Assembly: GCF_009755665.1 (NCBI RefSeq)
Contig: NZ_CP046622.1
Coordinates: 3,348,001-3,412,000, forward strand
Reading direction: 5' to 3'
Length of the DNA: 64,000 bases
From: Variovorax paradoxus
Lineage (GTDB): Bacteria > Pseudomonadota > Gammaproteobacteria > Burkholderiales > Burkholderiaceae_C
Shown one piece after another: positions 17,369 through 60,731 of this stretch (the first letter of the stretch is position 1; each line of letters begins with the position of its first letter). A model generated the notes under the pieces. The model had not been told where the DNA came from. It saw nothing but the letters and a program-made list of their open reading frames with translations, and searched no databases. The position numbers and the translations under genes were made by a program.

Positions 17369-17384
17369 TTGGCGGAACCGGAGG
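17369..17384 (+). repeat. attL core: copy of the tRNA-Ser 3' end
   Basis: The 16 bases TTGGCGGAACCGGAGG are identical to 60716-60731, which is the 3' end of the intact tRNA-Ser plus one base. The sequences differ after both ends of this block. This is the pattern left when a tyrosine integrase inserts an element at the 3' end of a tRNA gene. Confidence 0.82.
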
Positions 17385-18602: not shown

Positions 18603-19118
18603 TTACGGCGTAGCAGCAACGGTTGCGCCACAAGCAGCCGTGTTGTACTTTACGTCGGCGGTGCTGTTGCAGGTCCACGTGCCATTGGCATCGCGAGCCC
18701 AAGTGATTGCCTTGGCGGTGCCAGCGGTCAGCGTGTTGGCAGCCTTGTTGCCGAACGTACCGACGATCTGAGCCGTGCCGCTAGCAGGGGTGATCGTGAC
18801 GACAGGGTAACCTGCACCGGCCACGGTCGGAGCGCCAGCTTGCGGCGTGCCAGACAGGATGCTCGAAGCGGTAGCGCCAGGATTGCATTCGCCAGCGGCA
18901 GCGCCGATGGTCGTCTTGCCGTTGTTCATGCAATCTTCGATGGCCGTCTTGATGGCGCCGGTTTCGCCCACTGCGCGCGAGACTTGCGACTTGGCGATGT
19001 ACGTTTGGTACTGGGGAATGGCGATGGCGGCCAAAATGCCGATGATCGCCACAACGATCATCAGTTCGATAAGGGTGAAGCCAGCTTGTGCGCGGCTGCG
19101 GAGGGTACGAACGTTCAT
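18603..19118 (-). CDS. pilA: Type IV pilin (PilA-like major pilin)
   Basis: The 171-residue prepilin has a short basic leader ending in QAG, the cleavage point before [18 protein letters not shown], with the conserved Glu at mature position 5. The rest is an Ala/Thr/Gly-rich globular head with two cysteine pairs, including a C-terminal pair (WTC and TAAC) that would close the D-loop. It is a normal-length type IVa pilin that needs host PilD and the assembly machine. It has a sigma-54 promoter-like sequence upstream and a strong terminator downstream. It lies inside the prophage boundaries, which is unusual; no other pilus gene is nearby. Confidence 0.93.
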
Positions 19119-21528: not shown

Positions 21529-22281
21529 TCAGACGAGGTCGGCTTCTTCTTCGCTGGCCGCCTGCGCTGTCGACGGTGCCGGCCCCGCATCGATGACGTT
21601 CACCGAAGGCAGCAGCAGCATGTCGCGCGCCTCCTCGACCGTGCAGGTCAGCCACCGATCGAAGTCGTGCTCCTCGAGCGGCACGACGGACCGCTTATCG
21701 AACATCACCTGCTTGGTCATCCGATCGATCTCGATCTTGTGCATGCGCGACATCACCGGGTGCAGATTCGCGTTGATGGTGAGCATGGTGTAGCTGTCCC
21801 ATATCTCGCCAGTCTTCAGGTCCGTCCAGCTGTTCCACAGGCCGGCCACGCCCCATGGCTTGCCGTCGGCGCGGCGAAAGCGCCACCACTCGTTTTTCCC
21901 GCTCTCCCAGTTCGGTTCGTCGAAGCTGGCGGCCGGGATGATGCAGCGCTTGCCGCGGGCCCATGCGTCCTTGTAGGTTGGCGACTTTTCCATGCGGTCG
22001 GTACGCGCGTTCACGGTGCTCAGGCGCTTGCCCTTGTCCTCGCCCTTCCGCGGCTTCGACACGGGAATATTCGACGTCGACCAAGGCGGGATCATTCCCC
22101 ACTGCCCCACCACCAGCTCGCGCGCGTACTCCACCTCGTCGGCCCGTCGGACGAAGCTGGCCAGGGAGAGCGGAAACGCCGTCAGCAGGTTCTGCCAGTC
22201 CTTGCGTTGGTTGGACCGCCGGTCGATCTTCCAGAAGGCTTCTATCTCACGCTCTTCCGGGCTGATGTAACGGGTGCACAT
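21529..22281 (-). CDS. yedK: SOS response-associated peptidase (SRAP; YedK/HMCES family)
   Basis: The 250-residue protein starts MCTRY, so after Met removal the catalytic cysteine becomes residue 1, as in all SRAP proteins. Other family parts are visible: NARTD near residue 74, the IIPAASFDEPNW segment near 100-112 and NANLHPVMSRMH near 165-177. SRAP enzymes form a covalent thiazolidine link to abasic sites in single-stranded DNA and so protect them. The start 52 bases from a LexA-type box (22333-22352) fits DNA-damage control. In a phage it may protect replicating DNA. I chose the ATG at 22281 because the cysteine must be second. Confidence 0.93.
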   Translation of the reverse strand: MCTRYISPEEREIEAFWKIDRRSNQRKDWQNLLTAFPLSLASFVRRADEVEYARELVVGQWGMIPPWSTSNIPVSKPRKGEDKGKRLSTVNARTDRMEKSPTYKDAWARGKRCIIPAASFDEPNWESGKNEWWRFRRADGKPWGVAGLWNSWTDLKTGEIWDSYTMLTINANLHPVMSRMHKIEIDRMTKQVMFDKRSVVPLEEHDFDRWLTCTVEEARDMLLLPSVNVIDAGPAPSTAQAASEEEADLV

Positions 22282-22332
22282 GCCCAAATTCTGCACTCAG
22301 GAACGGGTTGACGGGCGAATAACCCTGCCGAA

Positions 22333-22352
22333 TACTGTATGCCTTTACAGTA
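22333..22352. promoter_or_regulatory. LexA-type SOS box between divergent genes
   Basis: TACTGT-ATGCCTTT-ACAGTA matches the CTGT-N8-ACAG LexA consensus exactly, with extra symmetry at both ends. It lies 51 bases upstream of the SRAP gene and 16 bases before the divergent gene at 22369, so it could control both. Confidence 0.8.
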
Positions 22353-22368
22353 CTTTCTGGAGTTCAAC

Positions 22369-22767
22369 ATGACTGAACCCTCCCTAAAGCCCGACTACCA
22401 CACCTGGGTCGGGGCGTTCGTTTCCGAGTGGCTCCGCCTTGCCGAAGGCCAGGCCGACCCTGAAGAATTGCACGAGCAGGCCATGACGCTGTTCCGCGTG
22501 GTCGGCGACCAGCCGGCGGAAGAGATCGCCCTGAAGCACTTCAACAGCTATCCAGACCCCGAAGACCGGGTGCGCGATCCTGAAGGGGCGTTCGCCGAGC
22601 TGGCGGCCGAGCTCGGCATCATCAAGCGCGGCGACCGGCTCGACGACATGCAGATGGATTTCGCCTTTGGCGTGGTCGACCTGTGCGCGGCAATTGGCGA
22701 CCGTTACGGCGACAAGGCCTACGGTAACGCCGGCGACCACATCCGCTCGGTGTATGGGCCTGTGTGA
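22369..22767 (+). CDS. Hypothetical acidic prophage protein (132 aa)
   Basis: The product is acidic and helical, with no signal peptide and no recognised domain. The N-terminus MTEPSLKPDYHTWVG follows directly on the LexA-type box at 22333-22352, so it is probably expressed after DNA damage. I chose the ATG at 22369 because an earlier in-frame ATG lies within the box. It could be an SOS-linked regulator, but nothing in the sequence shows this. Confidence 0.7.
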   Translation: MTEPSLKPDYHTWVGAFVSEWLRLAEGQADPEELHEQAMTLFRVVGDQPAEEIALKHFNSYPDPEDRVRDPEGAFAELAAELGIIKRGDRLDDMQMDFAFGVVDLCAAIGDRYGDKAYGNAGDHIRSVYGPV

Positions 22768-23229: not shown

Positions 23230-24207
23230 CTAGTGTGGTAGCGCGATGCCCAGAAAAGAAGCTGCTGTAACAAGATCAGCGCGGTACTTGCCCAAAGGCC
23301 AGCGATCTGCGGCAATTTGATCGTGATGCGCGAGGACCCACAAAACCAAAACCACGAAGGGATGGCTAAACATATTGCCTTCTTCGCGAGCCTCAATAAC
23401 CTTGGCAGAGTGGACTTCGAAGAGTCTTCTCACGTCACTGGTATGGGCGCCGCTCAACACATCTCTGAATGTCTCAAAAAACAGTTGTGCCTCAGCTTCG
23501 CTAACAGCCGTTGCCAGCTGACCGCAGGTGGCATATACCTTTGCTGAGTGCGCGCTCCACTCCGCTAACGAAAGATTTATACAGGCAAGTTCCTCTGCCG
23601 CTTCCGAGAAGATCAAGTCCGTGGACTCCAGCATGGCCATGGAGCGCGCCACAAGTCGCCTCACATTGGAAGGAACTTCCTTGCCAGCCTTGTAGACCCT
23701 ATCGTGGACGAATTCAGCATAGGCATGCTGCACTAGAGTGCGAATCTGGATTTCGCATGGAGTGTCTCGCGGAACTACGAAATCACCTAGTTTGATGTCA
23801 TCGTTAGCTCGAACGATGAAATGCGTTGACTGGTAATCAAAGACTTCGGGATTCTCATGTACTTCGAAGAGCGGAGACCGATCCTTTCGCGGAGTCCACG
23901 CGTTGCAATTTACTATCGCCCTTTCGACTAGTGCGATATCTGCGTCGAGCAAGACTACGAAGCGAACTCCTAGGACATCTGTTAGCTGAGAAACTGGATC
24001 GTCGTAGGCTTTGCGCTCAATTTTTTCGACCGCTGACAGAGTATCTTTGACGCGGAAACTCGGACCTACCTTGATCAACTGCGAGTACTTCTCAGCAGTC
24101 AGCGTCGCCTCTAAGGAAGCCATGATTGTCTGAATGACGTACTTCCCGTACTCCTTCAGACACGGACGAAGCGCATCAAGCCTCTCTCCGAAGGAGGCAG
24201 GGGTCAT
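23230..24207 (-). CDS. RelA/SpoT-domain protein, probable alarmone synthetase-like enzyme
   Basis: The 325-residue protein has a RelA/SpoT nucleotidyltransferase core at about residues 25-175. Key residues are in place: R52, K54 and S58 in SFRVKDTLSAVEKI, D77 and R82 in DVLGVRF, Y125-S127-H129 in DYQSTH, E152, Q154 and R156 in CEIQIRT, and E165 and H168 in HAYAEFVH. A hydrolase HD domain is absent. The last 150 residues are of unknown type. Such single-domain enzymes make (p)ppGpp or related products, and some act as toxins. The start overlaps the NA37 gene stop (ATGA), and the pair sits behind a LexA-type box. Whether it is a toxin, a signal enzyme or part of defence is not known. Confidence 0.85.
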   Translation of the reverse strand: MTPASFGERLDALRPCLKEYGKYVIQTIMASLEATLTAEKYSQLIKVGPSFRVKDTLSAVEKIERKAYDDPVSQLTDVLGVRFVVLLDADIALVERAIVNCNAWTPRKDRSPLFEVHENPEVFDYQSTHFIVRANDDIKLGDFVVPRDTPCEIQIRTLVQHAYAEFVHDRVYKAGKEVPSNVRRLVARSMAMLESTDLIFSEAAEELACINLSLAEWSAHSAKVYATCGQLATAVSEAEAQLFFETFRDVLSGAHTSDVRRLFEVHSAKVIEAREEGNMFSHPFVVLVLWVLAHHDQIAADRWPLGKYRADLVTAASFLGIALPH

Positions 24208-25274
24208 TCACGAGTCTCCATCAAGCCAGGAACAGTAAGCGTAGTTGACCCGTCTGGGTTGGCTGCCAACGTAATGCTCGACATCAACTCCGGCGGGCTG
24301 GACAGAAAGATTTTCGAGGAAAATGTAATCTTCCGACGACGCTTAAGTTTTGCAGCGACGTATTCAACGTCCTTCTGAACTGCATGATTTGGGAAGCCCT
24401 TTTGCCCAATCATGAAGGTCTCGTAGGCCTGCTTGATCTGCGGAGCCATATGACTTGTCGCAAAGTCGATAACACTTACCACATTTGAAGTGCTGCGAAG
24501 GTCTGTACGGAGCGCTTCGATCAAATCTAGTCTATCGTTCTCGGGCAGCCCTGAGGACTTGATGAAAGTCAGCGTGTTCTCGTAAAAATCTCTTGTCCTT
24601 GCTCGCGCCGAACTTGCAGTGTTGCAACCCAGAAAGCCGTTGTAGAAGTAAAACGCGGCGTGCCGAGTCTCGGTCGAAGTCATTAAGTGATCAAACAAAT
24701 GAACGACATGCTCGTGCGGTTGATATTGCCCTGCGTTGATCGTCGGGTTCGCCACATTTCGCTGCAGGTATCCAATCTTGAACAGTCGTTGACTATCAGT
24801 CATGAAGATGTCCTTCAAATGCTGCAACGAACTAGATGCACCTGCACCCGGCCTGTCCGCCAAACCATCTTGCAATTCAGCTTTCACTGCCATTAGGTAC
24901 GGCAACTGCCCTGCCGTGACCGTTCCTTGTATGAACATCAACTTGCTGTGCGCTAGGTGCTTGTTGTTCTGCGCGCCTGCCAGCATCGTCGCAAGCACTC
25001 GAGCTTGGGAAACAAAGTTGGCGTCATTGCCATCGATTGCATTGCAGGCGAGCTGGAAAAAGCTAGCTGGCGCAGAGTCGACGATCGACACCTCCATTCC
25101 ATTCGCGTTCTTTCCAAGTGCTCCGGTAAGACGACGGCCCACCATCAACTTCGCGGAACTGCCCAACGTTGTAAGCGCCTGACCGCCGGTCGGCACTCCT
25201 GCACTCTTATCAGGTTGGTCGGGCGGAATGTCAAACAGAACGGCTCTACCTATCACAAGCTGCTGCAAATCCAT
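24204..25274 (-). CDS. Nucleoid-associated protein, NA37/YejK (NdpA) family
   Basis: The 356-residue protein resembles the NA37 family. It has an N-terminal half with KHLAHSKLMFIQGTV near residue 105-120 and a KAELQDGL strand near 132-139, then the marker FYNGFLGC near 210-218 and a C-terminal strand pair with KITFSSKIFLSS and TLTVPGL. YejK binds nucleoids in E. coli; its role is not well known, and family members are often found on mobile elements. I use the ATG at 25274 rather than the TTG one codon earlier. The gene precedes and overlaps the RelA/SpoT gene, and a LexA-type box is 70 bases upstream. Confidence 0.75.
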   Translation of the reverse strand: MDLQQLVIGRAVLFDIPPDQPDKSAGVPTGGQALTTLGSSAKLMVGRRLTGALGKNANGMEVSIVDSAPASFFQLACNAIDGNDANFVSQARVLATMLAGAQNNKHLAHSKLMFIQGTVTAGQLPYLMAVKAELQDGLADRPGAGASSSLQHLKDIFMTDSQRLFKIGYLQRNVANPTINAGQYQPHEHVVHLFDHLMTSTETRHAAFYFYNGFLGCNTASSARARTRDFYENTLTFIKSSGLPENDRLDLIEALRTDLRSTSNVVSVIDFATSHMAPQIKQAYETFMIGQKGFPNHAVQKDVEYVAAKLKRRRKITFSSKIFLSSPPELMSSITLAANPDGSTTLTVPGLMETRE

Positions 25275-25344
25275 CAATTGCTTTCATAAAAAGCGAATTG
25301 TCACAGTATGTAGCGCTTTTCTATGAGAGCGATCCCTTGATAGA

Positions 25345-25364
25345 TACTGTACTTTCATACAGTA
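25345..25364 (-). promoter_or_regulatory. LexA-type SOS box upstream of the NA37-RelA/SpoT pair
   Basis: TACTGT-ACTTTCAT-ACAGTA matches CTGT-N8-ACAG exactly and shares its six outer bases on each side with the box at 22333. It is 70 bases upstream of the NA37 start and on the far side is 22 bases from the end of the Rz gene. The only gene pair that reads away from it is NA37-RelA/SpoT. Confidence 0.8.
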
Positions 25365-25386
25365 TTTTGTCAAGCGCGAGAGCTGG

Positions 25387-60715: not shown

Positions 60716-60731
60716 TTGGCGGAACCGGAGG
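60716..60731 (+). repeat. attR core in the tRNA-Ser 3' end
   Basis: The same 16 bases as at 17369-17384. All but one base belong to the tRNA gene, so integration leaves the tRNA whole. Confidence 0.82.

Follow-up and report, generated by a model that had tools for sequence, protein, structure and literature searches.

The window, a 64,000-nucleotide stretch of the Variovorax paradoxus genome, contains a prophage with terminase, portal, tape measure, tail, O-like, S24 repressor, and integrase genes. The integrase adjoins a tRNA-Ser, the end of which recurs as a 16-base repeat at window positions 17369-17384 and 60716-60731, possibly the attachment site pair. If 17369-17384 is an attachment site, a type IV pilin-like open reading frame (ORF) (18603-19118) lies inside the prophage edge. 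Among 50,697 named-phage records, we found no DNA near-identical to window positions 20000-44000.

On the minus strand of this prophage (window positions 23230-25277), a gene for an NA37-family protein is followed by a gene for a RelA/SpoT-type enzyme, and the stop of the first and the start of the second share the sequence ATGA. This overlap and a LexA-type box upstream had been described in an initial sequence-only reading, and both were confirmed here. The features discussed below are as follows.

24204..25277, minus strand: NA37-family protein, 357 amino acids as called from TTG; the ATG at 25274 is the start in relatives
23230..24207, minus strand: RelA/SpoT-type pyrophosphokinase, 325 amino acids, without a hydrolase domain and with a C-terminal helical part
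25345..25364, no strand assigned: LexA-type box TACTGT-N8-ACAGTA, an exact palindrome 67 nt before the called NA37 start
25346..25373, minus strand: sigma-70-like promoter TTGACA-N16-TACAGT, 10/12 matches, with the LexA box overlapping the spacer and the -10 element
22333..22352, no strand assigned: second exact LexA box, located where the SRAP gene (minus) and the ORF starting at 22339 (plus) diverge
22339..22767, plus strand: ORF downstream of the second LexA box, which overlaps the called start; the likely start is 22369
21529..22296, minus strand: SRAP gene, an SOS-associated neighbor (PF02586, 92.6 bits)

Upstream of the pair and in the same direction lie a glycoside-hydrolase-19 (endolysin-like) gene and a small ORF, possibly for an Rz-type spanin, and the pair itself stands ahead of two plus-strand ORFs and the SRAP gene. 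The ORF at 22339..22767 has no Pfam match. Pfam scans of the nearest other ORFs (22339+, 22786+, and 25387-) revealed no antitoxin family, and no SLATT-profile match adjoins the window pair.

The two proteins

The only Pfam match of the enzyme is RelA_SpoT (PF04607, 57.8 bits). Its ATP-site and Mg residues are kept, and R52, K54, S58, D77, E152, Q154, and R156 are invariant in 35 sequences, which upholds the initial description of a RelA/SpoT core that has its key residues and lacks a hydrolase domain. The kept catalytic residues suggest that the enzyme transfers pyrophosphate. In PHROGs, the enzyme belongs to phrog_32462 (E = 2.5e-79), for which no function is known there. Its predicted structure (pLDDT 88) matches SAS1/SAS2 (TMt up to 0.80), CapRel (Foldseek E = 6e-6), and long RSH enzymes.

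Like RelQ/SAS1 and RelP/SAS2, the enzyme combines this fold with the donor-site and Mg residues and with the G-loop tyrosine, which binds the guanosine substrate in known enzymes (excerpts of PMC5794853). By sequence, it is nearer to RelQ/RelP, its best PDB matches, than to CapRel (E = 0.005). It differs from RelQ and RelP in its length (325 amino acids versus 209 to 237 in the PDB chains), its G-loop consensus (P-x-x-F-D-Y-Q-S), its near-obligate NA37 partner, and its mobile context; in the alignment with RelQ, the P-x-x-F-D-Y stretch has no counterpart of the H-K that precedes the RelQ tyrosine. For the tRNA-modifying FaRel2, a smaller basic acceptor patch than in alarmone synthetases has been described (excerpts of PMC11782079). 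CapRel carries a C-terminally fused pseudo-zinc-finger antitoxin domain; the match of our enzyme to 7ztb covers profile positions 39-164 only. Long RSH enzymes (RelA, SpoT, and Rel) have an N-terminal HD hydrolase and C-terminal TGS/ACT domains, which are absent here by Pfam and at 325 amino acids. The PADLOC candidate PDC-S33 matches the RelA/SpoT region (E = 6e-10) and covers enzyme residues 23-165 only; NA37 has no match in PADLOC. The host genome itself has two long RelA/SpoT frames (785 and 782 amino acids), which could blunt a plain (p)ppGpp effect of the enzyme.

The NA37 protein has a single, marginal Pfam match (PF04245, 25.5 bits against a cutoff of 24.6) and belongs to phrog_1974 in PHROGs (E = 8.8e-37), again with no function known there. 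Fifty alignment columns are invariant in 21 sequences. The structural model is of moderate quality (pLDDT 75, pTM 0.53); it stands out only in the comparison with Escherichia coli YejK, on which the overlay is loose (rmsd 11.2). As judged by profile and predicted fold, the protein fits the NA37/YejK family. NdpA/YejK is common to two otherwise different Pseudomonas phages (excerpts of PMC10305613).

Pairing across genomes and viruses

To count pairings, loci were fetched with the enzyme alone (80 genome loci out of 411 relatives and 80 viral loci out of 81) and scanned with an NA37 profile built by iteration. Counting was limited to loci with 1,100 nt or more of upstream sequence; a contig end came too close in six genome loci and one viral locus, which were left out. 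Within the family found with the enzyme, NA37 is the immediate upstream neighbor, on the same strand, in 73/74 genome loci and 61/62 viral loci; the exceptions are L008, with a shortened enzyme, and L143, in which both genes are broken. The reverse search, from NA37 alone, recovered the enzyme in 41/42 viral loci, and the sole exception (L190) is truncated where its contig ends. Distant RelA/SpoT viral loci have NA37 in only 1 of 17 cases. In 300 genomes of the same order, NA37 matches were present in 40 and enzyme-profile matches (E ≤ 1e-20) in 7. NA37 is next door by coordinates to the four strong enzyme matches (G000, G031, G050, and G137) and not to the three weak ones. Since only 4 of these 40 genomes have NA37 beside the enzyme, NA37 in general is no predictor of the enzyme; among the NA37/YejK/NdpA nucleoid proteins, it is the subgroup of the window that is tied to it, and the family at large is not.

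The arrangement of the pair is equally uniform. NA37 comes first in 139/139 pairs, and the intergenic gap, with starts as called, ranges from -50 to +19 nt in 138 of them, with -4 the commonest value. The remaining pair, L143, was kept in the 139; its gap of 874 nt results from both genes being in pieces. Removal of identical enzymes left 130 pairs, 123 of which had near-full-length proteins and entered the trees. Across these 123 pairs, the NA37 and enzyme tree distances had a correlation of 0.87 (permuted maximum, 0.16), which rose to 0.90 without three long branches (120 pairs). In the comparison with the phage contig L082, NA37 differs synonymously at 28 codons and nonsynonymously at 9, and the enzyme at 30 and 13, respectively; this synonymous excess fits constraint on both genes.

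Chance neighborhood is ruled out by the pairing counts in both directions and by the 300-genome survey. The sequence-only reading had suggested that the pair may act together and had named, beforehand, a wide adjacency search as the possible refutation; the claim withstood that search. The strict pairing, the overlap, and the order together suggest one complex or a gated pair.

Ten phyla are named in the record titles, many of which belong to metagenome bins that are possibly misplaced; isolates carrying the pair include Pseudomonadota, Bacillota (Clostridium and Sporomusa), and Thermodesulfobacteriota. In the 50,697 named-phage records, tblastn (E ≤ 1e-5) detected no relative of the window NA37 or of the L106 NA37 and only partial relatives of the enzyme.

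Further observations come from single loci. The one distant viral locus with NA37 (L148:7372-9464) encodes a very divergent RelA/SpoT protein (20% identity) with NA37 directly upstream, so NA37 may have joined two enzyme lineages. In Clostridium aestuarii, a second, distant RelA/SpoT ORF (L022:12508-13491) lies 1.5 kb from the pair on the opposite strand. A BRCT-domain gene stands 2 nt upstream of NA37 in a viral contig (L117:7997-8917), and an Mrr-type restriction endonuclease gene stands 16 nt upstream of it in L124 (250-1311).

LexA-type boxes in the prophage, the host, and relatives

Only three exact LexA boxes occur in the 5.57-Mb genome, and two of them are in this prophage. With up to one mismatch, there are eight sites, compared with one for the reversed control. 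Besides the two exact prophage boxes, these eight comprise two sites ahead of radical-SAM genes, one by a DEAD_2 helicase frame, one adjoining a frame with a SulA match just below the cutoff, and two next to scanned ORFs without a family match. The site upstream of the host lexA is only a 3-mismatch variant. The helix of the host LexA resembles the E. coli recognition helix. Since the promoter scan overall was not better than shuffles (2 found versus 1.6 expected), the weight rests on the coincidence of promoter and LexA box: by sequence, the exact palindrome lies on TTGACA-N16-TACAGT, the operator-over-promoter arrangement expected of a member of the host LexA regulon. The two boxed cassettes of the prophage face each other, with their boxes (22333-22352 and 25345-25364) about 3 kb apart.

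Across relatives, the core CTGT-N8-ACAG was observed in 13/127 upstream regions, while shuffles predict 0.53 and random windows of the same loci contained it in 13/2,057 cases. Leaving out the window and L082, which nearly duplicates it, gives 11/125. The boxed loci cluster in the clade of the window (12/15 rows) and stand apart from it in L052, L131, and L134; the 12/15 includes L006 (a 2-mismatch site) and L007 (a short upstream region), both outside the 13/127. On the FastTree tree, the box label needs six changes. Within the window's clade, L002, L003, and L005 have no box, and the first two are the nearest relatives outside the phage of the window. The box of L084 sits just within the called NA37 start, which is probably called too early, and that of L134 precedes an S24 gene that stands before the pair.

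Instead of the LexA-type box, three of four Bradyrhizobium copies have GAAC-N7-GAAC, the recA-type box of that genus, 77 to 87 nt upstream of the pair. In each of these three genomes, the recA match also has this motif some 150 nt ahead of it; L037 and L056 nearly duplicate each other. The fourth Bradyrhizobium locus (L027), with a shortened NA37, has no GAAC-N7-GAAC in 12.4 kb. GTTC/GAAC-N7 matches outside the alphaproteobacteria (L016, L042, and L019) are probably due to chance, and the gram-positive pattern GAAC-N4-GTTC had 1 match versus 0.5 expected. Sites with fewer than 3 mismatches are missing from four of the copies read in E. coli, Klebsiella, and Ochrobactrum. The same holds for three of the four E. 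coli/Klebsiella loci read; the remaining one, L210, carries a 2-mismatch site that lies 74 nt ahead of an upstream HTH gene. A bare CTGT-N8-ACAG inside this HTH gene is the sole core in the 16.3 kb of L210, for which at least one core appeared in 29/200 shuffles.

Universal SOS control is rejected, as 114/127 upstream regions lack CTGT-N8-ACAG. The proposal that the pair is SOS controlled therefore divides: LexA control in the clade of the window is well supported by these sequence patterns, but it is not a general trait. SOS control is thus an addition made more than once and not what defines the pair.

Genomic settings and possible roles

The pair occupies cargo sites in phages, integrative elements, and plasmids. 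In 17 loci, many of them near copies, it converges on the antiterminator Q gene at -11 to 50 nt. In six loci (L130, L134, L136, L137, L138, and L140), it follows an S24-type repressor gene at a distance of 20 to 109 nt and in the same orientation (assignment Pfam checked in L134, L136, and L140), which is where rexAB sits in lambda. In E. coli L725 and CEC15, it resides in P2-like prophages, in one of them between ogr-like and D genes (2/5,426 genomes at the search sensitivity used); a conjugative Klebsiella plasmid carries it; and one element with the order integrase-SLATT-NA37-enzyme lies beside DprA/RecQ. Such sites suggest competition between mobile elements, and phage-carried defense hotspots provide a precedent (excerpts of PMC9122126). 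Near the pair, S24 repressors and UmuC reach only about twice their density in the 3- to 9-kb flanks, the type I methylase reaches 3-fold (3 versus 3 cases), and the integrase reaches 1.3-fold, so these densities were not used as evidence.

The toxSAS systems (FaRel2-ATfaRel2, PhRel2-PanA, and CapRel) resemble the pair in having a single synthetase domain with kept catalytic residues and no hydrolase, in forming a two-gene or fused unit, and, in some cases, in their location on mobile elements. Their synthetases are toxic alone and neutralized by the partner, and the product is tRNA-PP or (pp)pApp. The toxSAS partners named in excerpts of PMC11782079 and PMC8832971 are PanA, pseudo-zinc-finger, Tis1-like, and hydrolase proteins; the partner in the window, NA37, is none of these. 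The sequences are best read as encoding a mobile two-gene unit, toxSAS in kind and new in its partner. More specifically, we assign a probability of about 0.5 to the pair being a gated growth-blocking effector in which NA37 restrains the enzyme and infection or DNA damage is the trigger. NA37 would tether the enzyme to DNA or keep it in check; once freed by infection or DNA damage, the enzyme would pyrophosphorylate a nucleotide or tRNA, and growth would stop. LexA repression would limit the amount of the unit made from this prophage, DNA damage would increase it, and the outcome may be abortive infection or the exclusion of rival phages. We infer that NA37 binds both DNA and the enzyme and that the enzyme is active. 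A restraining or sensing role for NA37 fits the strict pairing and the invariable NA37-first order.

The main tension is that LexA control would switch the unit on just as the prophage itself is induced, at a stage when blocking growth could harm the phage. NA37 might go on restraining the enzyme at that point, pending a second trigger, or the product might benefit the phage. The same timing favors a device of phage physiology, in which SOS induction would lead to (p)ppGpp, slower host macromolecule synthesis, and a shifted lysis timing, with no antiphage role. The genomic position behind the endolysin-like gene is consistent with this, as is the antiterminator Q gene within 1.5 kb of the pair in 18 loci versus 2 in the flanks (Pfam checked on L102). 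Plasmid and integrative-element copies, however, have no annotated lysis gene in the stretches read, a P2-like prophage copy lies between ogr-like and D genes, and the SOS box is usually absent, so we consider this explanation unlikely.

Next to the pair, 12/130 loci have a DUF4231/SLATT-type gene, which does not occur in the 3- to 9-kb flanks (assigned by Pfam on L125 and in the others by clustering with L125). SLATT is predicted to be a nucleotide-responsive pore (excerpts of PMC7159879), and SLATT-bearing nucleotide-signal systems have the SLATT/DUF4231 gene in the operon. The pair could, by analogy, be a signaling system, with the RelA/SpoT enzyme in the cyclase role, a separate membrane protein as the killer, and another target in copies without SLATT. 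DUF4231 or SLATT is annotated at two E. coli loci, and BEC1-S17-ESBL-07, KFu023, and SCU-102 have the SLATT form of the module. SLATT is, on the other hand, missing from the window and from 118/130 loci, and 9 of the 12 SLATT loci form one clade, the tree needing four changes; signaling through a membrane protein seems an unlikely explanation. At the E. coli loci L261:3698-7719 and L260:5528-8078, the SLATT/DUF4231, NA37, and GTP pyrophosphokinase genes are consecutive, one set by an integrase gene and the other by a relaxase gene.

Two overlapping genes with a putative restrainer first, carried on phages, plasmids, and islands, are also what toxin-antitoxin addiction would look like, with the pair merely keeping its own element in the cell. 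Usual antitoxins are far smaller than the NA37 partner of about 355 amino acids. The strong conservation of NA37 also argues against addiction, and the LexA control and the SRAP and SLATT neighbors point to a response (SRAP lies within 1.5 kb of the pair in seven loci, the window and L082 among them, versus one in the 3- to 9-kb flanks), leaving little room for this account. That NA37 is the active part, an antisilencer against H-NS-type silencing with the enzyme as an accessory, is highly improbable: NdpA2 of Pseudomonas does counter MvaT and raise island transfer with TprA, but its partner is an RHH regulator and not a RelA/SpoT enzyme (excerpts of PMC8565334), and the enzyme is kept in 41/42 viral NA37 loci of the subgroup.

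The gated effector could also be part of something larger. In this doubtful extension, the pair would be a widespread immune pathway in which NA37 reads the state of cellular DNA and sets free a RelA/SpoT-type enzyme, whose product would be a new pyrophosphorylated messenger. A SLATT pore would have been coupled to it in one lineage, and temperate phages would have wired the pathway to whichever LexA operator the host uses, DNA damage thereby arming the cell against competitors.

The initial suggestion that the system is undescribed stands in part. No paper naming the NA37-RelA/SpoT pair was among the matches listed in the open-licence literature, and the pair is unnamed in excerpts of PMC8832971, PMC11782079, PMC9122126, PMC10561277, PMC13310844, PMC13092281, PMC8565334, PMC10305613, and PMC7159879. 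Excerpts of PMC13092281, however, describe 42 validated E. coli systems with YejK among their domains, and the YejK-bearing DefensePredictor system validated there, a precedent for a defense role, may or may not be the NA37-enzyme module.

If the gated effector reading is true, NA37/YejK proteins, so far mainly nucleoid proteins, would gain a partner enzyme and a job, and a widely spread branch would be added to alarmone-based defense. The pair would also offer a clean case of one module placed under the DNA-damage switches of different hosts.
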